A DNA stretch of 38,467 nucleotides, from positions 1 through 38,467 of IMG/VR virus record IMGVR_UViG_3300021076_000353. One strand, written 5' to 3'. Below the pieces are notes generated by a model. It did not search any database. It saw only the letters and a program-made list of their open reading frames with translations, and was not told the DNA's origin. Positions 3,440 to 30,490 of this stretch are shown here, one piece after another. Numbering within the stretch: position 1 is the first letter of the stretch; every line of letters begins with the position of its first letter. Made by a program: the position numbers and the translations under genes. The stretch is from a virus.

Positions 3440-3473
3440 AGGGTTTAGGAGTTTTATATCACTCCTAAACCCT
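3440..3473 (-). terminator. Strong hairpin terminator after the 849-residue fibre gene
   Basis: A perfect 13-bp inverted repeat (3440-3452 with 3461-3473) encloses an 8-base loop. On the minus strand the stem is followed by four T's. It lies between the fibre gene stop (3485) and the next leftward gene (start 3424), so it probably ends or thins transcription of the main late operon before the last tail genes. Confidence 0.75.
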
Positions 3474-10323: not shown

Positions 10324-10797
10324 TTAAACCTCCAACATATATTCAATTACTACATTACAAACATTATAAACACCATTTGAAACAATAATTACATCAACTG
10401 CATTCATACTAATCGTATCTGAATTTCCAAATATAGTTGCATCAAATGTACTTTGATTAGTGGCAGCAGCCCATAGATCAACAAGGGTGAAGTTAACATC
10501 AAATGTAATACCATGCGCCACTGTGATCGTTGCAGCAGTTATAGGGCCAACTTCAATGACCATTCTAAAGACTTGTCGGAATTGTCCCGGATTATTCCCC
10601 GGTATAGCAGGAACAGGAATAAAAGCTTTTCCCGTTAATAATTCCTGATCAAGATAGAAACCTATTTCACGTGAATTGACAACATTTGATATTCTCTTAA
10701 GTTCTTCTACAAGGAACTGTCGCCCTTCTTCCCATTTTTCAGGGATGGTATCATAAACAGGAAGGTAACTTTCAAGTTCCTGACTTGAGAAACTCAT
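10324..10797 (-). CDS. Conserved tail-associated virion protein
   Basis: 157 residues from ATG 10797, chosen because it overlaps the upstream stop as ATGA; an in-frame TTG six codons earlier is less likely. The N-terminus is helical (LPVYDTIPEKWEEGRQFLVE), the remainder beta-rich (FRMVIEVGPITAATITVAHG). It follows a tail-tip-like protein and precedes ejection proteins, so a baseplate, needle-adapter or internal tail protein is likely. Exact role not recognised. Confidence 0.6.
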   Translation of the reverse strand: MSFSSQELESYLPVYDTIPEKWEEGRQFLVEELKRISNVVNSREIGFYLDQELLTGKAFIPVPAIPGNNPGQFRQVFRMVIEVGPITAATITVAHGITFDVNFTLVDLWAAATNQSTFDATIFGNSDTISMNAVDVIIVSNGVYNVCNVVIEYMLEV

Positions 10798-11450
10798 ATT
10801 CCCACCGCTTGCCAATAGAATTTAGTGAAAGTACTTGAATTATTATTGATCACAAAATTAGTCACGCCACCCGTTGCTGCCACAATCGCATTTACAATCA
10901 ATTGTTGAGTAGGATTGCCTGATGTGATGGGAGTGGCATTAAGGGAATAACATCCTCGTGTAAAAGGGATCGGAAATGTTACAGTTAATGTTGAATTTGC
11001 TGGAACTCCCGTCACAAGACCATATTGTAACAGCATTCCTCCATTAACGGCATTGCCAACATTGCCAGGAAGGAAAGTCCATCCTCCTATAAAGGTAGCA
11101 CCACCACTACTTCCATAGGATGTATTAGTCCCAAACAATGCATAACTGGCATCTATGCAACGGCTAAGTTGATATCCGTTATTTGAAGTATTATTCGTGT
11201 AAACCAGATTGCTATTGGCATTTAATGTTTGAGTATAAACTGTTCCTTCTCCAGCTGCTAATCCTGCTGGAATACCCGCAGAAACAGGCATTTCAACAAA
11301 TTTATGCTTGCCATTATTCGGAGTTACAGAAAATGGAACATGATTAACGCCAAAACTTGTATCTAGTTGCTGAAAGTTTCCTTGAATGTTCTTGTAATCC
11401 GTATCGAGGTTAACCAACCCTGTTGGGATAAGCGGCTGAAATGTAGAAAT
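10794..11450 (-). CDS. Tail tip/fibre-like protein, probably started at an ATT codon
   Basis: 218 residues if translation starts at ATT 11450-11448, five bases after a perfect AAGGAGG (11462-11456). The N-terminus would then be MSTFQPLIPTGLVNLDTDYK, which reads as one continuous domain start. The first standard alternative is TTG at 11417, which has no good ribosome-binding site and cuts off the first 11 residues. The rest is beta-rich (GGWTFLPGNVGNAVNGGMLL, FPIPFTRGCYSLNATP), as in small tail-tip or fibre proteins. The HNH gene lies immediately upstream and the next gene overlaps by ATGA. Confidence 0.6.
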   Translation of the reverse strand: MSTFQPLIPTGLVNLDTDYKNIQGNFQQLDTSFGVNHVPFSVTPNNGKHKFVEMPVSAGIPAGLAAGEGTVYTQTLNANSNLVYTNNTSNNGYQLSRCIDASYALFGTNTSYGSSGGATFIGGWTFLPGNVGNAVNGGMLLQYGLVTGVPANSTLTVTFPIPFTRGCYSLNATPITSGNPTQQLIVNAIVAATGGVTNFVINNNSSTFTKFYWQAVGI

Positions 11451-11460
11451 AAGTACCTCC

Positions 11461-12081
11461 TTAGGTCACGTGCCTCCAAAATCTATGATTTACGATTCCG
11501 GAAACCTGCGATTGACTTAATTTAAATTGTTCTTGAAGTTCCTTTTGGGAGCTTCCGTTTTTATATAATTCTCTAATTTCTCTAACTTGATCTTCTGTTA
11601 ACTTTCCTGCTGCTAGGGCTCTGTTTTTTTTTGGCGATCTTCTTTTCTTTTTTATACAATCCTGAACGTTGTCCTTTGGTGTTCCAATCCATAAATGATC
11701 GGGATTACAGCAAGATGGATTGTCACAAGTATGACAAACTTGCATTCCTTCAGGTATTTCACCATTAAAAATTTCATAACTTCTTCTGTGCGCTCGTATT
11801 TCTGTTTTATTTCCCTGACTTGTCTCTTGAAAACTTCCATATCCATCATTATTTAATTTTCCTTGCCATTCCCAGCAGCCATTAACTTTTTTATGTCTAT
11901 TCAAAATTTTGCATTTATCGCTACATTCAATCGTGTTTTTATTGTGTTCGTCATTGCATGAAGGACATATTTTTCTATTTCTTTCCTGTCTTTTTACTTT
12001 CAAATATTTAGTTCTGCATTCCTGACAATCCCGACCGTGATACATCTTTTTCAATTCAAAACATCTTAAACAAATATTCAT
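11461..12081 (-). CDS. Freestanding HNH homing-type endonuclease with zinc-finger N-terminus and HTH C-terminus
   Basis: 206 residues. The N-terminus has several Cys pairs (CLRC, CQEC, CPSC, CSDKC) likely to bind zinc. The HNH core is at about 92-140: RAHRRSYEIF, then VCHTCDNPSCCNPDHLWIGT and NVQD, matching the HNH_3 group. The C-terminus (LTEDQVREIRELY, then QKELQEQFKLSQSQVSGIV) is a helix-turn-helix that would bind DNA. It sits alone between tail genes, typical of mobile homing endonucleases. Its start codon and ribosome-binding site lie in a 9-bp hairpin (12080-12107). Confidence 0.9.
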   Translation of the reverse strand: MNICLRCFELKKMYHGRDCQECRTKYLKVKRQERNRKICPSCNDEHNKNTIECSDKCKILNRHKKVNGCWEWQGKLNNDGYGSFQETSQGNKTEIRAHRRSYEIFNGEIPEGMQVCHTCDNPSCCNPDHLWIGTPKDNVQDCIKKKRRSPKKNRALAAGKLTEDQVREIRELYKNGSSQKELQEQFKLSQSQVSGIVNHRFWRHVT

Positions 12082-12107
12082 GATAGCTCCTTTATTTTAG
12101 CTATCAT
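12080..12107 (-). promoter_or_regulatory. Hairpin over the HNH translation start
   Basis: A perfect 9-bp inverted repeat (12080-12088 with 12099-12107). On the minus-strand mRNA the AT of the HNH start codon is in the 3' arm and the AAAGG of the ribosome-binding site is in the loop. Such a stem would block initiation on long read-through transcripts. This resembles the known late-gene control of T4 homing endonucleases by hairpins; the regulatory effect here is inferred. Confidence 0.6.
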
Positions 12108-12113
12108 ATTCTA

Positions 12114-12136
12114 CCACAAATATTGTATATTTGTGG
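12114..12136 (-). terminator. 10-bp hairpin after the 858-residue tail gene
   Basis: A perfect 10-bp inverted repeat (12114-12123 with 12127-12136) with a 3-base loop lies just past the stop of the 12149-14725 gene. It lacks a clear T run, so it may be an attenuator, an RNA-processing site or the edge of the HNH insertion rather than a full terminator. Confidence 0.45.
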
Positions 12137-12148
12137 AGCATTATTTGT

Positions 12149-14725
12149 CTAAATACTGGTCATTCGTCCTGCTCTTCGCAGCCATAATATTTGTGCGTCG
12201 ATTTGAACATCTAGTTCTTGCTCGATTCCAGCCATTTGCGCGTTATTAAAAGTGTATTGAAGTGTAATAAAGTTTGCTCTCGTGGAACAATAAACACGTT
12301 GCCAAAACTTTGATCCACCAATGCCATTTAATGTTGATTGTGTCGTTGGAATTATCGAATTAAAAAAACCATCAGGAAGATCTAGCGTAGAATCATCCGC
12401 AATCACATTTTGAGGAACCGTATTACTAACTTGATTGTCATTATAATCAAGATAGACATTGAGACTAATAGCACCTGGATTTGTTAATTCTGTTGAATCC
12501 ATGAGAATATCAATAAAACCCATCTGAATGCTCTGTCCATCATCTGCAAAGTTAAATTTCTTACTAACGATGCTAAAGTTATCCCTAACAGAAATGTTAC
12601 CGACTCCAATGAAACCTGTGGTTGTATCAACTTGAGGAAGGCTAAATTGCCCATCTAATGGATTGTAAATAGTTAATTGAAAATTATTGACATCATTAAC
12701 AATTATTGAAAAAACTCCTCCATTCAGATTATCAAATGGCGTGCCGATTGGAATTCCACTAATTAATATCACTTGTCCCGTTTCTAAGTTGTGATTGGGA
12801 CTAGTTACGATTGTAGCATTGGGATTATTGGCCGTTATGGCGGTAATATATAAACTGGGATCATTAGTCGTTTGCTCATCCAATTGTTCTATAAATCCCT
12901 GTTGATTTCCGCCCACAATGACAGGATCACCAGATGGTTGATCAATCCAAGGAAAGTTGCATTGAATCCAAGGAATGTGAGTATTTACCCAAGTCCTGCT
13001 CTGTTGTTCTTGGAACGTCCCCAAAGCCGTCAAAGAATCTGTGAAAATGGCCCATGAGTCATTTTCATAATTGTAAACTAAACGGCGGTTGGGATATCTT
13101 ATAGTCAATGCCGGAACAGTGTCATCTGTCATTTCATCCGATTCGCCCACATAGGTCCAATATGCAAGACGATTAATAAAATCGCGTATACCTTGGATTC
13201 TGAATAATCCATGATTCTGATCCTGAAAATGAAAGACAAGATCTGGAATCTTGATATCTATTCTTTGGCTTTTGAAACTGTCGCATTCAACAATACCTTT
13301 ATCACCTATACCGACCAAACTTGTATCAAATTGAATAGCACTAAAGGTACTCGATGCACCAAGTTCACTATTAACTTTCTCAATTTGAAAGGGAGCAATT
13401 GTCCTTCCTGTATAACGAAGTTGCCATGTGCTACGTTCGCAATAAATAACGAGATTATCACGCACAAAACCAACTGAAACAATATCTTCAGAGGTGGGAA
13501 TATCAAGAAAACCTCCTTGTCCTCGAATATCATCTCGCCATGCTTTTGAATTAACTGTACTTACAATAGCACTTACAACGGTAAAGGGATTGCCAATAGC
13601 AGCCCATCTAATGCGGTTAGAATAAGGCCCAGTCGATTCTCTTGTGTTAAAAGCTACCAATCTACCTCTGAACGGTAAAAGCGCAAGACATTGATTTAAA
13701 GTATTACCAGCGGCATCAACAATTGGTGAAAAATTTATCCAATTCGTTCCTGATTGACCATTCGTATATCGTATCGGATCTCCCGAAACAGAAAAGTTAG
13801 TTGCCCAGAATATTTTGAGATTTCCATTACCTACCCAGTAATTCGTTGTCCAAAAGAATTCAAAATCTGTACCTGTCCATGTAGTTCCAGGAAGAAACTC
13901 TTGGAAACCAGAATTGTAGTTATAAGCATATTTTGTATCGAAGAAAATAGTTTCATCATTAACGGCATTTTGCAACTCACGATTGCGTATACCCATCACG
14001 GGTAAGCCCGGATAATAACTGAATGTAATTAGAACGGCGACACCGCTAGGTGCACCTATTATCACTACTGCGCCCGTCAAATAATTGATTGTTCCAGTGA
14101 TTCCAGATGCTGGAACCGTTGCTAATGTTCCATTTCCTTGATCAATGAGTTGTGTTGATCCTACATCTTCTGACCAAGTGCCACCCGATGAATAAACACC
14201 CCACAATTGGGAATCGCGATTGATTGTGAAACTCGTAGGACTTACAACCGATATAACATAAGGGCCGCCATTAATGGCATTGTCGCCACTACCTGGAACG
14301 ACAACAACACCGGATATAGTAATAACATTTCCTGTAGATAATCCATGGGGTGCCGATGTGAAAACTTCACAATTAGTAGTATTATTGTATCCTATTATTG
14401 TCCCTGTTGTAACTGTAGTGCTAAAATTAAGGATTACACTTCCAGGGACTATTTGAGCATTAGTTTCGGGAACTATTGGAGGTAATATTCCTGAATAAAT
14501 ATTAAATGACCAAGGTGATGCTCCACTTATTCCAAGAGATAAATTGGCGAAATTGCGTTGTAATCTACCAAGCAATTGATAAGCTTTTTTTCGTTTAAGT
14601 CTTTCCCGCCATACATAAGCATTTTCTAAGATCGGGTAAGCATCTTCAGGAAGAATGAATTCTTGGCGTGATTGTACTAACCCTGTCTCCATTGCCTTGA
14701 TATAGAGAGGAGAATAACCAGCCAT
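12149..14725 (-). CDS. Large tail/neck protein (tail-tubular-B or tail-stabilisation type) with two FCCH-like modules
   Basis: 858 residues from ATG 14725, preceded by GGAGG and sharing one base with the upstream stop (TAATG). The N-terminus has YVWRERLKRKKAYQLLGRLQ. Residues about 108-172 and about 625-690 are the same small beta module: SAPHGLSTGNVITISGV and SPNHNLETGQVILISGI, each followed by INGG or LNGG and a closing FTI or FQL. This resembles the FCCH-like module common in podovirus structural proteins. Size and position after the connector candidate suggest the tail tube or P22-gp10-like stabilisation protein. The module assignment is firmer than the role. Confidence 0.7.
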   Translation of the reverse strand: MAGYSPLYIKAMETGLVQSRQEFILPEDAYPILENAYVWRERLKRKKAYQLLGRLQRNFANLSLGISGASPWSFNIYSGILPPIVPETNAQIVPGSVILNFSTTVTTGTIIGYNNTTNCEVFTSAPHGLSTGNVITISGVVVVPGSGDNAINGGPYVISVVSPTSFTINRDSQLWGVYSSGGTWSEDVGSTQLIDQGNGTLATVPASGITGTINYLTGAVVIIGAPSGVAVLITFSYYPGLPVMGIRNRELQNAVNDETIFFDTKYAYNYNSGFQEFLPGTTWTGTDFEFFWTTNYWVGNGNLKIFWATNFSVSGDPIRYTNGQSGTNWINFSPIVDAAGNTLNQCLALLPFRGRLVAFNTRESTGPYSNRIRWAAIGNPFTVVSAIVSTVNSKAWRDDIRGQGGFLDIPTSEDIVSVGFVRDNLVIYCERSTWQLRYTGRTIAPFQIEKVNSELGASSTFSAIQFDTSLVGIGDKGIVECDSFKSQRIDIKIPDLVFHFQDQNHGLFRIQGIRDFINRLAYWTYVGESDEMTDDTVPALTIRYPNRRLVYNYENDSWAIFTDSLTALGTFQEQQSRTWVNTHIPWIQCNFPWIDQPSGDPVIVGGNQQGFIEQLDEQTTNDPSLYITAITANNPNATIVTSPNHNLETGQVILISGIPIGTPFDNLNGGVFSIIVNDVNNFQLTIYNPLDGQFSLPQVDTTTGFIGVGNISVRDNFSIVSKKFNFADDGQSIQMGFIDILMDSTELTNPGAISLNVYLDYNDNQVSNTVPQNVIADDSTLDLPDGFFNSIIPTTQSTLNGIGGSKFWQRVYCSTRANFITLQYTFNNAQMAGIEQELDVQIDAQILWLRRAGRMTSI

Positions 14726-15810
14726 TAAACATATCCTCCGCCGCCATTGCCCCAACCATAGAAATTTATTCCTTGTGTACTATTGAAAAGTTGAAAGTTT
14801 GGTTGTCCGATTTCTTCGATACCTTGGCGTTCAAGAACTAATCCTTCTTGTCGCATGAAACCCTCTTCAAGGTTCGCTACGCCTTCCGTATCTTGTCGTT
14901 GTCTTAGTATTTCTCTAGCAGTTCCGTATGCAATATAAAGAGCCCATTGATTAAGAATTGGACTATCAGTAGCACTTATAAATTGAACTGGAGTCAAGTA
15001 AGTTTCGATCTCGATTTTATGTATCAACTTAGGAACAGGACGAACAGTAAATTCATTATTCCAGAAAAGAACACAATAAGGTCTTCCTGTCTGGTATTGT
15101 GCTACCCATAAAGTCATTTGAGTTCCAGCAGCAGGCGCCACCGGAAATGTAATGTTAAATAAACCTGTCACATAGTTCACTGTTCCTATGGCATTCGTAT
15201 AACCTGGAGTCTCTGTTCCTTGATAATTCAATCCAGGATTACCAGTATTTTGATTGTGCATTCCTGGAATTGGAGCAATTCCATTTTGATTATAGATAGG
15301 AACAGTCGTAACAGAATTTGGCACTTGAAGTAATAGATTGCCATTTCCATCGTCATTTACACTTATCGGGTTTCCGTTTGTATCGATCCCACCTAAAACA
15401 ACTTCTTTGCTTAAAAAAGGTCCTGCAATAGTAAAAGTAAAAGTGACAGTAATTCCATCTCCGCTTATTGGCTTAAATAAAGTAGGCCACCTAGGCCACA
15501 AATTTAAAAACTGCGTGCGATCCTTGAAAAAAGTACCAAGAATGCCTTCAACGTATAAGGGTGCACGCACACCCTGATTAAAATTAACATCTAAAGGATA
15601 ACGATCCCGGTTAGGTTCAGTAAAAAACGTGTAAACTGAACGCATTTGATCTATCTTGATCGCATATGGGAAGTCATTAGAATAAAAATAGTTGATTCCT
15701 GCATCGATTTCATCAGTGCTCAAAGCATTTTCACTAGCGCAAGCGGTGAGTCTGCGCACAGTTTTACGAATGAAAACAACTGTATTGTCTGAAGGTGCTA
15801 CTGATGACAT
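14725..15810 (-). CDS. Head-tail connector / tail accessory protein candidate
   Basis: 361 residues. The N-terminus (FIRKTVRRLTACASENALST, then DEIDAGINYFYSNDFPY) is helical and resembles connector or tail-tubular-A proteins that dock under the portal. The middle is beta-rich with NYVTGLFNITFPVAPAAG. The C-terminus returns to helices (REILRQRQDTEGVANLEEGF) and ends GWGNGGGGYV. It lies between small head genes and the large tail protein, the place of P22 gp4 or T7 gp11. Homology to those is not shown here. Confidence 0.6.
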   Translation of the reverse strand: MSSVAPSDNTVVFIRKTVRRLTACASENALSTDEIDAGINYFYSNDFPYAIKIDQMRSVYTFFTEPNRDRYPLDVNFNQGVRAPLYVEGILGTFFKDRTQFLNLWPRWPTLFKPISGDGITVTFTFTIAGPFLSKEVVLGGIDTNGNPISVNDDGNGNLLLQVPNSVTTVPIYNQNGIAPIPGMHNQNTGNPGLNYQGTETPGYTNAIGTVNYVTGLFNITFPVAPAAGTQMTLWVAQYQTGRPYCVLFWNNEFTVRPVPKLIHKIEIETYLTPVQFISATDSPILNQWALYIAYGTAREILRQRQDTEGVANLEEGFMRQEGLVLERQGIEEIGQPNFQLFNSTQGINFYGWGNGGGGYV

Positions 15811-20869: not shown

Positions 20870-21088
20870 TTATTTAATTTTCTCTAACCAGTGCGTCACA
20901 TTATATAAAGGTTTTTCGTCATTCCACCAATAGCCCGATTTTCCAGTATATAAACGTTGCCAAAACATTTGATCTTTGTGAAAATATGATTTAATTTCAT
21001 CGTCATTATTTAATTTGACTCGGAAGATTCCATTTTCAATAGAAGGTAAACGCTCTTCTATTGAAATCCATTTACCATTAGATGTCAT
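20870..21088 (-). CDS. DUF551-like protein (isolated fifth family member)
   Basis: 72 residues from ATG 21088 (a TTG one codon earlier is possible). It opens GKWISIEERLPS and closes YNVTHWLEKI, the DUF551 plan: W-I-x-V/I-x-E-R-L-P at the start and V-x-x-W-x-x-L-P at the end. DUF551 proteins are small, widespread in phages of Gram-negative bacteria, and of unknown function. Four related genes are in tandem at 35877-36821; this one lies far away in the late block. The final LP is changed to EK. Confidence 0.7.
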   Translation of the reverse strand: MTSNGKWISIEERLPSIENGIFRVKLNNDDEIKSYFHKDQMFWQRLYTGKSGYWWNDEKPLYNVTHWLEKIK

Positions 21089-22184: not shown

Positions 22185-24197
22185 TCAAGCAATATTTTGC
22201 TGAGTTTGTGGTTGATTTGCTTGCTTCATCATCTGAGCTAACTCAAAAGCTGATCTCAATTGATTAAATTGCACATCCTCAAGTTCCATTGCGAGCTTGA
22301 CTAAATTCAAATCGGATTCCATTTGCTGGTGCTCTGCAGATGCGCCTATTTCTTCTATCTTAGCATATGTCTCTTGTTCCTTCGCTAGATCTAACTTAGA
22401 CTTAGCAAATGCCTGCATAACTTTGGATTGATCTAATTGGGCTTTGGACTGTGCTTCTGCTTGCTGGGCTTGCTGTTGTTGCTGATTCTGTTCTTCCATA
22501 TCCTGTATAACTTCCCGTTTATTCGTAATAAACGCAGCGCGAAGGATTGATTTATCCGCGATTCCCATCCCCAACTCTTTGAAATGTAACAATTGCTGCA
22601 ATTCCATTTGTCGTTGACTTGTAGAATAGTTCCCCTCTTCCACCGCAATGGAGTATTTTTGGCTGTGACTTGTCCAGAATCTTGGATCAGCTTCATGACC
22701 AAGTATGTTGCGTATCTTACCCTTGCTGAAATTCTTACGTATGGCTTGCAATCGTATTTTGCCATAAAGTCTTTGAGTATAGTCAAGCTTATCAAAGATT
22801 GTCTGTAGCGTGGTAAGCCCAGCCCCTTGCCGTAGCATAGAGAGAATGCCAGATTTGTCGTCTGTCGCTGCTCCCAAAAGTTCTTCATTAACACCTGATA
22901 TTTTCGTTATATCTTCGCTCAATGACGCACTTAATTCAAGCAAAGATTGAGGTATCGCCGCTGGTTCTATACGTTGTACTTCATTAGGCAGGTGACCAGC
23001 TTTTAAAGGCACTAGGAAGCCCTGACCTGACTGCCTAAATGCTTTGACATCCGTCACTGCATCCACAGGGAATATCCATCCAGAATTGATTTGAGACTGT
23101 AAGATCTCGAGCTCAATAACTTTGCGCATATTATAGAGAAACTGCGGATCACGTAGATTGCGAATAACCCCCATACAACGCCAAGCGTAATTAGTAACAT
23201 CCGGTTCATAATAACATATGGAAGGTACACAGGGATAAGCGTCAATATTAAGTAGATTCGGGCCATCATATACTTCTTTGTCACCTAGAGAAATACATAG
23301 TTTTACAGTAGGAACTTGCACTTTCTTAACTTGAAGCCAAGGTTGTTGTGCAAGTGTTCTTTCCATCATATCATCTTCATCACTTTCCTCTTGATCCCAT
23401 TCAACTGCTTCGCCGCTTTTAGGATCTAAAACAATAGTGGCCTGACGTGTAGTTCTATAATGGAATTCATCATAGGTGAATAGATTATTCAATGCTAGAT
23501 TCTGAAGTTCAGCTTGGACAGGAAAACGACCATCTTTCATACCACCAGGTTTCATCTTGTCAATTTCCTTGCCAAGGCCAGGTAAGAGGGCCTTTGCACC
23601 TTCTTTGCTTGTCCAACGTCTTCGCCATATTCCATTACAATCTGTCAAGTCTTGCTTGCGAAAATATTGATCAATTAGGAAATTATTATATGATACACAA
23701 TCTGTAAAAAAGTCACCTGAAATAGGATCTAGGGTATAGTCTGGATAAAGATAAAGTAAAGTCATTCCTGTATCGCAAGAACCTTCAAAAGCTTGTGACA
23801 AATATTCTTGAAAGCCATCTCTTTCTTCACACCATCGCATTACAGCATTGTAATCATCAGCAAGTGGATCATCCGTACCATGAATAGGAAGTGTTATTGT
23901 TGATTTACGATTTTTACGCTGAAAACCGCATATCATATTGATATGACGACGAATTAGATTAAAGAAATAGCGATAAGCATTTTGATTGTAATTATTACCT
24001 GTAGACCAACCGTAAAGCCCTTGATCACCTACCTTGAAACGCTTATCAATGAATCCCTGTGACCATAAAGCTGAATTCCCGGGATAATTACTCTGATAGA
24101 ATTCATCTTTCATTTGCTTGAGATTTTTAGCTGAGACATCACCTGGGTCAATATAGCCTATTCCGAGGTTGTATCCGCCTTGCTGGTAACTGGGCAT
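22185..24197 (-). CDS. Portal protein (P22-like)
   Basis: 670 residues from the second ATG (24197), which gives AGGA five-base spacing; an ATG two codons earlier is too near the site. Pattern of P22-type portals: RHINMICGFQRKNRKSTITL, then VMRWCEERDGFQEYLSQAFE, GMTLLYLYPDYTLDPISGDF, YAWRCMGVIRNLRDPQFLYN. The C-terminus is Q/A-rich coiled coil (EEQNQQQQQAQQAEAQSKA), as in portal barrels. Forms the 12-fold ring through which DNA is packaged and ejected. It follows the terminase genes. Confidence 0.85.
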   Translation of the reverse strand: MPSYQQGGYNLGIGYIDPGDVSAKNLKQMKDEFYQSNYPGNSALWSQGFIDKRFKVGDQGLYGWSTGNNYNQNAYRYFFNLIRRHINMICGFQRKNRKSTITLPIHGTDDPLADDYNAVMRWCEERDGFQEYLSQAFEGSCDTGMTLLYLYPDYTLDPISGDFFTDCVSYNNFLIDQYFRKQDLTDCNGIWRRRWTSKEGAKALLPGLGKEIDKMKPGGMKDGRFPVQAELQNLALNNLFTYDEFHYRTTRQATIVLDPKSGEAVEWDQEESDEDDMMERTLAQQPWLQVKKVQVPTVKLCISLGDKEVYDGPNLLNIDAYPCVPSICYYEPDVTNYAWRCMGVIRNLRDPQFLYNMRKVIELEILQSQINSGWIFPVDAVTDVKAFRQSGQGFLVPLKAGHLPNEVQRIEPAAIPQSLLELSASLSEDITKISGVNEELLGAATDDKSGILSMLRQGAGLTTLQTIFDKLDYTQRLYGKIRLQAIRKNFSKGKIRNILGHEADPRFWTSHSQKYSIAVEEGNYSTSQRQMELQQLLHFKELGMGIADKSILRAAFITNKREVIQDMEEQNQQQQQAQQAEAQSKAQLDQSKVMQAFAKSKLDLAKEQETYAKIEEIGASAEHQQMESDLNLVKLAMELEDVQFNQLRSAFELAQMMKQANQPQTQQNIA

Positions 24198-24257
24198 GAG
24201 CATCCTATAGTTGAAAATAGGATGTATATCATAAAAGTTTTATTTAACCAAATTTTC

Positions 24258-26102: not shown

Positions 26103-26240
26103 TTATTTATTCTTCTTTTTCATCATTTTTTTGCCGTAATCGCATTCTTTATCACGTTTGTGATCTGCTTTGAGCAAGGATTTTGTATCTTTTACGACTT
26201 CTTTTTCTTTCTTCTCAATCTTTTTTATCTTCTTGTCCAT
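26103..26240 (-). CDS. Small lysine-rich protein before terminase
   Basis: 45 residues, almost entirely charged (KKIEKKEKEVVKDTKSLLK, then KRDKECDYGKKMMKKKNK). It overlaps the methyltransferase end by 26 bases and its stop is one base before the terminase small subunit start. Unknown function; a highly basic peptide may bind nucleic acid. Confidence 0.5.
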   Translation of the reverse strand: MDKKIKKIEKKEKEVVKDTKSLLKADHKRDKECDYGKKMMKKKNK

Positions 26241-27480
26241 TGAACGGTTCTCCATTGCGTAATATTTTATATTCTTTCCCGGACTTTATCATGAATTTTT
26301 TCCAACGGTCAACGATTATATCACAGTAAGCTGGGGAAAGTTCAATACCATAGCAGATACGTCCTAGTTGTTCTGCGGCTATCAATGTTGTCCCAGAGCC
26401 AAGGAAGGGGTCATAGACACCTTCTTCTTTGGCTGTGTTGTTGCGGATAGGTTTAGCCATACATTCTATGGGCTTTTGTGTGCTATGGGCTGTGCGCTCT
26501 TCTCCGTCTTCTTTAGATTTACCAAAGCAATTAAGATTAGCTATTTCCCAAGTAGTAGCTTGATCGCGGGCACCTTGCCAATTGTGTTGGTGTCCTTTTT
26601 TAACGGCATACCAACAGGGTTCATGCTGCCAATGATAATCGCCACGTGATAATGCAAAGTGCTGTTTAACCCAAATGATCTGGCTTATGATTTCATATTC
26701 GGAATCAGTTAAGCTTTTTTCAACTTCTCCGCAATATTTACCTGCATGCCATACATAAGCAACGGAACCTGGGAATAAATGCCAAGCTAACGCCCAATTA
26801 ACCTTGTCATCGTTTTGAACTTTACCTAATGCCCTGGCAGCAACACCATGTTTACCTTTAATATCTTTACGCCATGATGGATCATATTCAACACCATAAG
26901 GGGGATCTGTTACCATCAAAATAGGTGTTGCACCGTTTAAGCATTTATCAACATATTCGGGTAATGTGCTATCACCACAAACAATCCGATGGTTATTAAG
27001 CTCATAGACATCTCCTAGCTTAGTGATAGCATCTTTATCCTCGCCTGGACTTAATGTTTGCTCATCTTCTTCAGTTGATCCTAAGTCCTCAACTTCATTA
27101 ATGCTCCCCATTAGTTCTTCAGCAGTGAAGCCCCATTCCATTAATTCGTTAGGATCCCATTCATTAGCTAGACATTCCCAATCCCAATCGCCAGTATTCT
27201 TATTCAAACGAATATTGAGTTCTTCAATCTCTTTTTCATCGAGTGAACGATCAGGAACCATACATTCAACTTCTTTATGCCCCATTTTTTTAAGAGTACG
27301 CTTACGTTGATGACCGCCAATGATAGTGTTATCTAGATTGATTATAGGTTTATCAATGAGTCCGAATTTTTCTAAAGAGGCTCGGAGTTGAATTTCCTGA
27401 TCTTCGGTGAGTATGCGAGGGTTTTTCTTATAATCTTTAAGTTCAGAGATTTTTCTTTTTTCAATGTGCCAGTGAATCAT
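26215..27480 (-). CDS. ParB-like nuclease domain fused to DNA methyltransferase
   Basis: 421 residues from ATG 27480. Residues about 5-95 are ParB/Srx-like (ISELKDYKKNPRILTEDQE, then IIGGHQRKRTLKKMG). The C-terminal half is a beta-class amino-methyltransferase: catalytic motif IV DPPYGVEY at about 190 and the AdoMet motif I DPFLGSGTTLIAAEQL at about 365, in the order IV-I, and GIELSPAYCDIIVDRW. DPPY suggests N6-adenine (or N4-cytosine) methylation. Such fusions are common in phages, probably to protect DNA from host restriction or to mark sites for packaging. It lies beside terminase. Confidence 0.9.
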   Translation of the reverse strand: MIHWHIEKRKISELKDYKKNPRILTEDQEIQLRASLEKFGLIDKPIINLDNTIIGGHQRKRTLKKMGHKEVECMVPDRSLDEKEIEELNIRLNKNTGDWDWECLANEWDPNELMEWGFTAEELMGSINEVEDLGSTEEDEQTLSPGEDKDAITKLGDVYELNNHRIVCGDSTLPEYVDKCLNGATPILMVTDPPYGVEYDPSWRKDIKGKHGVAARALGKVQNDDKVNWALAWHLFPGSVAYVWHAGKYCGEVEKSLTDSEYEIISQIIWVKQHFALSRGDYHWQHEPCWYAVKKGHQHNWQGARDQATTWEIANLNCFGKSKEDGEERTAHSTQKPIECMAKPIRNNTAKEEGVYDPFLGSGTTLIAAEQLGRICYGIELSPAYCDIIVDRWKKFMIKSGKEYKILRNGEPFNGQEDKKD

Positions 27481-27622
27481 TAATCTCTTTATAAGACAAG
27501 GGTTGAGGTAGTCGCCGAATTCGTGATCCATGATCATGTAAAGCGGTTTTACATTTGGTTTTAGGTATATCAAATAGGCGGGAAATAGGCGAGAAATAAT
27601 TTTCATTTATTTTTGTAGACAT
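27461..27622 (-). CDS. 53-residue leader gene ahead of the methyltransferase
   Basis: From ATG 27622, MSTKINENYFSPISRLFDI, then PKTKCKTALHDHGSRIRRLP and SYKEINDSLAH. It overlaps the methyltransferase start by 20 bases, and the methyltransferase frame upstream of 27480 has weak composition, so this frame is the better use of the sequence. The ribosome-binding site is weak. Homology not recognised. Confidence 0.45.
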   Translation of the reverse strand: MSTKINENYFSPISRLFDIPKTKCKTALHDHGSRIRRLPQPLSYKEINDSLAH

Positions 27623-29240: not shown

Positions 29241-29516
29241 TTATTTAAGATGTATCTCATTTTTGCGTTGATCGTCAACTTTTTTATTCTTTCCCCACCT
29301 TCTAAAACCATAAATTGCAATGCAGATTGAGACAATGCAGGAGATGCCTTGGGAATATAGGCCCCTATTTATATCCATAAAAAACCAATAAGATAGACAA
29401 GTTATATCAATCAGGAAACATATACGATTACCTCTGGCATTGAGGATTTTGCCACCTTTTCCCATTATTAGAAAGCATGCATCGACAATATTTGCTGTTA
29501 GTCCGAAAAGATTCAT
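29241..29516 (-). CDS. Multi-TM small membrane protein (PnuC-like fragment)
   Basis: 91 residues with three hydrophobic stretches: [33 protein letters not shown] and [18 protein letters not shown]. The final GFRRWGK resembles the end of PnuC-like or other small phage membrane proteins; the assignment is weak. Positive residues at the C-terminus suggest the cytoplasmic side. May be part of a lysis or uptake function. ATGA overlap with the HNH gene. Confidence 0.55.
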
Positions 29517-29998
29517 ATTTCCTTTGAGTTGTACGGGATTTCGGGACAGTTGTACGATTTTTCAACTGTACGTTTTTTTCGTACAGTGTATCCATATTCT
29601 ATAAGAAAATCTTTAGCCCACTTGATTAGATCATCAACGTTTTGCCCATGGGGATGATTTCCAAAATAAAGTTCTAAGTTTTCAATGCGATTATCAGTTT
29701 TAATCCCGTTTTTGTGATGCACTGATTCACTTTTTTTTAATGGCCTTCCTAAGTGTTGTGACATAATATAAGTATGTTCTCCGATTCGACCATCTGCATA
29801 ACTATTTGGATGACCGTATGCTCTGAGAATTCTATATCCATTATGACTTTGAAGGAAATAAACTTCTTTTTTCCTTCGTGCATTAGGCGTAACTTTGTTT
29901 TCTTTTTGTCTTTTTTGTAAATCAATCGCATAGCATTTAGAACACATTTTCATTTTTTTTATTGGTTTTTCTTGGCAAGTAACACATAGACTTTTCAT
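29513..29998 (-). CDS. HNH endonuclease, second copy of the class in this genome
   Basis: 161 residues. The N-terminus has zinc pairs CVTC and CSKC. The core [15 protein letters not shown], then [19 protein letters not shown] and [11 protein letters not shown] is the HNH_3 signature seen in phage homing endonucleases. It lies between the RusA gene and a membrane gene. A 9-bp hairpin (30007-30035) abuts its ribosome-binding site, as the other HNH gene has one over its start. Likely a mobile homing endonuclease. Confidence 0.85.
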
Positions 29999-30006
29999 GA
30001 ATCTCC

Positions 30007-30035
30007 TTTTTGGTTGTACGAATCATAACCAAAAA
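30007..30035 (-). promoter_or_regulatory. Hairpin against the HNH ribosome-binding site
   Basis: A perfect 9-bp inverted repeat (30007-30015 with 30027-30035) and 11-base loop. On the minus-strand mRNA the 3' arm runs into the GGAG of the HNH ribosome-binding site (30003-30006), so part of the AAAGGAG is paired. Likely limits translation of HNH on read-through mRNA. Confidence 0.55.
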
Positions 30036-30046
30036 TGGATAACTAA

Positions 30047-30490
30047 TCAAGATTTTATCGTACAGTTGGGTTCAATTGTAATCCAGAAGCCTATGGGGTG
30101 TTTCTTGCCAAACGCATCCACGTTCGATTTCTGACCATATCGCCATTGAATGTGAGGACAGCTATCCCAAATACCTTTTGACGCAGCTGATGAAGAATTA
30201 AGGGCCTTGGCTGCGATTATTGGGTCTTTATCTAAAACAATAAGTTCGGCGACTTGATCTTTTGCGTGTTTGAAGGCATGGATGAGATTGTCTTCATCGA
30301 GCATCTTTTTTCCGACTCGCTCGAAGGTGACGATGCATGGAAAAGGATAATCGAATTTATTCTTCAAAGCTGCGACGATGCCGTATTGCTGATTAAGGGC
30401 ACGTTTACGTTTTACTGCCCAATGATCGCGGTTGTTAGCTTCGCTAATGATCTTATGCGGCACGAAAATGATTATCTTCTCTTGGATCAT
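30047..30490 (-). CDS. rusA: RusA-like Holliday-junction resolvase
   Basis: 147 residues. The family core DEDNLIHAFKHAKDQVAELI, preceded by a basic beta segment (FERVGKKML), with D/E residues as in RusA, and a second basic region (RKRALNQQYG). RusA cleaves four-way junctions in phage recombination and packaging. It matches the RecT and YqaJ genes on the other strand. ATGA couples it to the upstream gene. Confidence 0.8.
   Translation of the reverse strand: MIQEKIIIFVPHKIISEANNRDHWAVKRKRALNQQYGIVAALKNKFDYPFPCIVTFERVGKKMLDEDNLIHAFKHAKDQVAELIVLDKDPIIAAKALNSSSAASKGIWDSCPHIQWRYGQKSNVDAFGKKHPIGFWITIEPNCTIKS

Follow-up and report, generated by a model that had tools for sequence, protein, structure and literature searches.

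Predicted control of translation starts by hairpins and host-type promoters in free-standing phage HNH endonuclease genes

Is a free-standing endonuclease gene that sits behind a phage gene translated from its neighbour's mRNA, or only from RNA of its own? The question is raised by the 38,467-nt virus record IMGVR_UViG_3300021076_000353 (the window), which carries two such genes, HNH1 and HNH2. A preliminary description, made from the letters of the window, had noticed a perfect 9-bp hairpin at the translation start of each gene and had proposed that, as in T4, endonuclease is not made from read-through mRNA. We compared the two leaders, their insertion sites and their predicted promoters with those of relatives. 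Both hairpins are exact (Table 1), and the comparisons suggest that translation of these genes is tied to promoters that travel with them.

The two HNH genes, their leaders and their insertion sites

Profile searches assign both proteins to PF13392 (HNH_3), HNH1 at 49.0 bits and HNH2 at 36.1 bits against a curated cut-off of 24.8. In the HNH1 leader, two of the three bases of the ATG (12079-12081) lie inside the hairpin arm. The isolated stem has a computed energy of -9.1 kcal/mol, and the fold of the 89-nt leader stands out from shuffled sequences (z = -4.7). The predicted pairing of the AUG is 0.84-0.89 in read-through RNA versus 0.56-0.59 in RNA from the predicted start; the SD, mostly in the loop, has a predicted pairing of 0.33 in either RNA, leaving the AUG as the main change. 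The palindrome CCACAAATATTGTATATTTGTGG just upstream could be an operator or an RNA structure, and pairing of its ACAAATAT arm with the HNH1 start (AATATTTGT) is conceivable as well.

The HNH2 hairpin is stronger than had been claimed. Past a bulged A at 30036, bases 30037-30039 pair with 30004-30006 (UCC:GGA), and this continuation of the stem takes most of the SD into the paired region of the predicted long RNA: the predicted pairing of the SD is 0.86-0.93 with 60-150 nt of upstream RNA and 0.35 in RNA that begins at the predicted start. The isolated stem has a computed energy of -5.7 kcal/mol, and the energy of the whole 81-nt leader is not unusual (z = -0.62).

Table 1. Positions of features at the two HNH loci of the window
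Feature	Position	Strand	Remarks
HNH1, free-standing HNH endonuclease ORF	11461..12081	-	206 aa; PF13392, phrog_59/1872
Tail-fibre gene	10794-11417		neighbour of HNH1
Virion protein gene	12149-14755		neighbour of HNH1; HNH1 inserted between the two
HNH1 leader hairpin	12080..12107	-	9 bp, loop 10; exact inverted repeat, coding strand
HNH1 SD (AAAGGAG)	12087..12093	-	loop and first two bases of 3' arm
HNH1 extended -10 (TGG-TAGAAT), predicted	12108..12113	-	weak -35; start expected at ~12101, inside 5' arm
Second perfect hairpin/palindrome	12114..12136		10 bp, loop 3; just upstream of HNH1 hairpin, over predicted -35/spacer
HNH2, free-standing HNH endonuclease ORF	29513..29998	-	161 aa; PF13392
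9-mer TCGTACAAC	29549..29557	-	HNH2 downstream junction
HNH2 SD	30003-30008	-	in 3' arm of hairpin
HNH2 leader hairpin	30004..30039	-	exact 9-bp core 30007-30035, loop 11, plus UCC:GGA
HNH2 promoter (TTGATT-17-TATGAT), predicted sigma70-like	30022..30050	-	start expected at ~30015
RusA-like gene	30047..30490	-	3' end truncated by HNH2 insertion, ends EPNCTIKS; from comparison with L298

A dedicated promoter whose RNA would lack the 5' arm, as the preliminary description had suggested looking for, is predicted in both leaders. At HNH2, the predicted -35 shares bases with the stop codon of the RusA-like gene, the 5' arm lies in the spacer and the -10 in the hairpin loop. Promoter-like sites number 5 and 2 in the two leaders versus 3.1 and 3.4 expected in shuffles and are not significant alone; we therefore turned to relatives. 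Both promoter matrices (-10 and -35) were built manually on what is generally known of E. coli promoters and may not be those of the host; no phage-encoded RNA polymerase was recognised among the proteins scanned.

Comparison with relatives places both leaders within inserted units. Six relatives (L258, L260, L261, L268, L271 and L294) have an empty HNH1 site, at which the virion protein gene and the tail-fibre gene stand a few to ~20 nt apart with neither HNH gene nor hairpin. At the HNH2 site, which is empty in L298 (94% identical), the RusA-like gene of that relative is intact: it ends EPSCPEISDNSKEI and runs on to ...SCPEISDNSKEI. The last 12 residues of HNH2 correspond to the former tail of this gene. 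Since the empty-site relatives lack leader and gene alike, the leaders belong to the inserts. With occupied and empty sites both seen, HNH1 and HNH2 appear mobile, their homing activity being putative. The name RusA-like reflects our reading of the sequence; the gene has no match in Pfam, PHROGs or NCBIfam.

The HNH1 site is also occupied by other genes. The virion protein of L257 is 98% identical to that of the window, and L257 carries at this site a homologous but different HNH gene, the leader of which has a wholly different 8-bp hairpin on the same plan: TATAAT, then CGACAAAC...GTTTGTCG, and a GTG start. Further HNH versions occupy the site in L259 and L272. Among cultured phages, the HNH1 region found a single weak DNA match.

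Several further features of the two sites were recorded. In L278 (6380-6660) and L281, the C-terminal part of a decayed HNH1 stands alone, flanked by the genes for the virion protein and the tail fibre. The HNH2 insertion (29513-30075) is bounded by what resemble imperfect inverted repeats (CAACTGTACGAT ... ATCGTACAACTG). In L298, the vacant HNH2 site is itself a hairpin (GTTGTCCGGAAATTTCGGACAAC). A 91-aa ORF (29241-29516) with a weak match to an NMN transporter (PF04973) overlaps the HNH2 stop, and in L298 a much shorter stretch than in the window separates the RusA-like gene from the DNA that matches next.

Promoters, hairpin arms and start masking among relatives

Seven perfect stems in the window reach 9 bp or more with loops of no more than 15 nt, versus 2.75 ± 1.85 in second-order Markov sequence, and two of the seven sit on the only two HNH starts of the window. 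The HNH label was not blind for these stems, so the independent test lies in the relatives. Among flanking genes of other contigs, an SD-masking stem reaches 7 bp or more in 3.0% and 8 bp or more in 1.2%. As this control rate predicts one such stem in roughly 40 to 80 genes, an 8-bp stem over the likely SD at the portal gene start (24195-24224) was set aside as near chance level. Long perfect stems elsewhere in the window, at 3440-3473 (13 bp) and 21034-21066 (12 bp), are perhaps terminators or 3'-end structures. A single ORF at 26215-27606 encodes a DNA methyltransferase preceded by a ParB-like domain.

We collected 223 HNH leaders and 1505 control leaders of flanking genes from viral contigs and 7 genome contigs, made non-redundant by shared 9-mers, with related leaders still not fully independent. 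A simple rule assigned the start codons, and thresholds and class boundaries were chosen after a first look at the data. Boxes of the -10 type at -45..-20 are present in 65 HNH leaders (29%) and in 145 control leaders (10%, p = 1e-13); when genes with non-coding upstream DNA are taken alone, the counts are 46/119 and 72/544 (p = 1e-9). Sigma70 spacing is the only one at which the -35 score of HNH leaders has a peak (1.27 bits versus -0.3 or lower). Where a promoter-class HNH gene has an upstream ORF, the two are co-directional in 87% of cases, with a median gap of 54 nt, which makes read-through the normal situation for this class.

Of the 61 promoter-bearing HNH leaders with an SD, 12 have an SD-masking stem of 8 bp or longer, versus 1/113 promoter-bearing controls (p = 1.5e-5). 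The arms fit each other within each gene: although arm sequences vary from gene to gene, native arms compared with arms re-paired between genes give z = 7.2, with 9 stems of at least 8 bp versus 0.6 after re-pairing and 11 versus 1.7 at 7 bp or more; for promoter-bearing controls z is about 2. Promoter-bearing relatives of the HNH1 type gave no arm match (z 0.2-0.4, n = 13). What speaks for HNH1 is therefore its own hairpin, together with L257 and the wider pattern. A small further set, 37 new HNH genes of the same family picked regardless of leaders, agrees with the main set in direction and size: promoters are present in 11/37 versus 17/189 controls (p = 0.0015), and the swap gives z 2.5-3.4.

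The geometry of promoter and hairpin points the same way. The 5' arm and the -10/start region are often the same DNA. Half or more of the 5' arm precedes the predicted start in 19/22 masking hairpins, versus 14.6 ± 2.1 in permuted data. Predicted pairing from SD to AUG is higher for HNH genes than for controls in read-through RNA (0.66 versus 0.54, p = 2e-5) and equal in RNA from the predicted start (0.46 versus 0.47). Coarser measures gave no difference: leader energy and mean pairing were the same in HNH and other genes in the first 93 loci, and a count of perfect stems over -18..+3 by itself gave no significant enrichment in HNH leaders of the enlarged set. The signal emerges once arms, SD and promoter are taken together.

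Cultured HNH relatives displayed no clear hairpin plan; most of those examined overlap or abut the upstream gene, and the HNH leader of ctXG6705 has only a 5-bp stem. In Mycobacterium phage Soul22 (L398, ~420-460), a 14-bp perfect hairpin ends directly before the HNH ATG. This hairpin was rejected as support from covariation because one identical sequence is common to Soul22, Jabbawokkie, Zapner and Renaud18.

A second class of HNH leaders has its -10 at exactly -12 (18/223 versus 5/1505 controls, p = 1e-12), a signal that persists with both groups limited to genes with non-coding upstream DNA. The SD is absent in 21 of the 23 HNH genes of this class versus 32/200 other HNH genes, and the class is predicted to make leaderless mRNA; gp100, the HNH gene of Streptomyces phage BRock, is a cultured example of the type. 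An internal AUG without SD would be poorly used on read-through RNA, so that loss of the SD would serve the same end as a hairpin. About 60% of HNH leaders have neither the hairpin nor the leaderless design.

Proposed mechanism and competing readings

From these comparisons we infer the following course of events in vivo. In read-through mRNA from the upstream phage gene, the leader would fold so that the SD, the start codon or both are hidden, and little or no endonuclease would be made. From a host-type (sigma70-like) promoter that belongs to the cassette, RNA would start within the hairpin; this RNA, with a leader of ~15-20 nt and without all or most of the 5' arm, would be translated. Such control probably prevents over-production of a toxic or costly nuclease in strongly transcribed operons. 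We consider it likely, if well short of certain, that each of the two HNH genes is a self-contained mobile expression cassette with translation tied to its own promoter. The T4-like block of read-through translation put forward in the preliminary description has thus gained comparative support from arm complementarity, G.U preference, promoter/start geometry and leaders that travel with the insert, all of it at the level of sequence.

The character of the mismatches bears on whether these structures act in RNA or in DNA. Single mismatches in the HNH stems are 18 G.U and 1 A.C (re-paired null share 0.60, p = 9e-4) versus 20:21 in controls. This strand asymmetry argues that the structure acts in RNA, since a DNA palindrome would give similar numbers of both. 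It speaks against the reading that the inverted repeats are DNA operators, bound at the promoter by a dimeric repressor or by the endonuclease, with RNA folding incidental, as do the findings that the palindrome differs for each gene and that the stems lie specifically over the SD. Operators would account for the overlap of the palindromes with -10/start regions and for the second perfect palindrome over the -35 of HNH1. They would also explain why the 9-mer at the HNH2 insert junction recurs in the HNH2 hairpin loop: its sole other exact copy in the window, at 30013-30021, lies there between the -10 and the start, and CCGTACAAC is likewise found near the downstream junction (29528-29557). The two copies suggest an operator resembling the homing site, as in I-TevI, which represses its own promoter through such an operator (PMC2988022). 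On balance, we regard operators with incidental folding as an unlikely explanation.

We give an equally low probability to the idea that the hairpins are terminators or 3'-end stabilisers of the upstream transcript and lie near the HNH start by accident. HNH genes do follow closely behind another gene, perfect stems are also enriched in -38..-18, and the extra hairpin upstream of that of HNH1 could be of this kind; against this, neither stem is followed on the coding strand by a T run or terminator-like site, the empty-site relatives lack the stems despite having the same upstream gene, and the stems lie over SD and AUG and follow the promoter. Least probable of all is chance, by which AT-rich leaders would yield occasional 9-bp stems and the two cases would be a coincidence picked by eye: the expected number of such stems in the window, the ordinary energy of the HNH2 leader and the portal stem would suit it, but the enrichment, swap and G.U tests in relatives and the different hairpin on the same plan in L257 run counter to it.

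We propose, tentatively and at slightly less than even odds, that free-standing phage HNH genes outside T4 are in general translated only from RNA of their own promoter, which would be achieved in two interchangeable ways, by an SD-hiding hairpin or by loss of the SD with a -10 at -12 (leaderless). The dissimilarity of the two window genes had been read as convergent control. Their proteins are indeed barely alike (18% identity, E = 0.09), yet convergence is not established: because both belong to PF13392 and the plan recurs across relatives, an inherited plan whose hairpin sequence turns over is equally likely. Nor is the plan special to one podovirus-like genome.

Relation to known systems and significance

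Hairpin control combined with middle or late promoters is described for T4 I-TevI, I-TevII, I-TevIII and segB and for Aeh1 mobE (PMC2988022, PMC3014915). The T4 segB leader (NC_000866), our positive control, has a promoter box followed directly by a CTC...GGAG hairpin over the SD, and the L100 leader is nearly identical to it in sequence. Like the window genes, segB is a free-standing insert with the same layout; unlike them, it encodes a GIY-YIG enzyme, its promoter is of the T4 late type rather than -10/-35, and T4 is a myovirus. A published parallel is the free-standing HNH gene mobE of Aeh1, whose RBS is sequestered by a hairpin on upstream transcripts and escapes on late-promoter RNA (PMC2988022, PMC3014915); by this description its plan is that of the window, in a T4-like phage and with a late promoter. 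In I-TevI, I-TevII and I-TevIII, the hairpin forms only on early/middle read-through RNA and late-promoter RNA lacks the 5' arm (PMC2988022), but these genes (two GIY-YIG, one HNH) are intron-encoded, have late promoters, and splicing partly explains their control. The stable hairpin of seg43 in Aeromonas phage 25 lies directly upstream of the endonuclease RBS (PMC2988022) and, unlike those of the window, does not cover it. For hidden HNH genes of the ShiLan type in mycobacteriophage methylase genes, leaderless translation has been proposed (PMC11855218); they resemble our leaderless class but lie out of frame inside the methylase gene, with no promoter or hairpin described.

The window plan thus appears to match that of T4 segB and, as published, of I-TevI and mobE, yet with predicted host-type promoters and outside T4. 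HNH1 and HNH2 share with the T4 type a mobile insert that is absent from close relatives and a predicted RNA structure covering RBS or start. They do not share the phage late promoter (TATAAATA, no -35): this box occurs in 0/223 HNH leaders, the -10 boxes of which come with a -35 signal. Our literature search, which covered open-licence papers, found no report of the plan outside T4-like phages.

Hairpin control of the start, so far known from T4-type phages, appears to be a widespread form of control. If the general rule holds, host-type promoters would place the production of HNH endonucleases early in infection or all through it, opposite to the late timing in T4. The data point to cultured test cases, such as the leaderless-type HNH gene of BRock, and a promoter-hairpin fusion of ~35 bp would be a useful genetic part, with expression insulated from read-through. 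Selfish endonuclease genes insert into strongly transcribed phage operons, and a portable start region that is deaf to transcription of its neighbours would help to explain how they persist nearly everywhere without harm to the phage. The cases from T4 might have been taken for a speciality of that phage; the present data suggest a wider rule that operates with host-type promoters.
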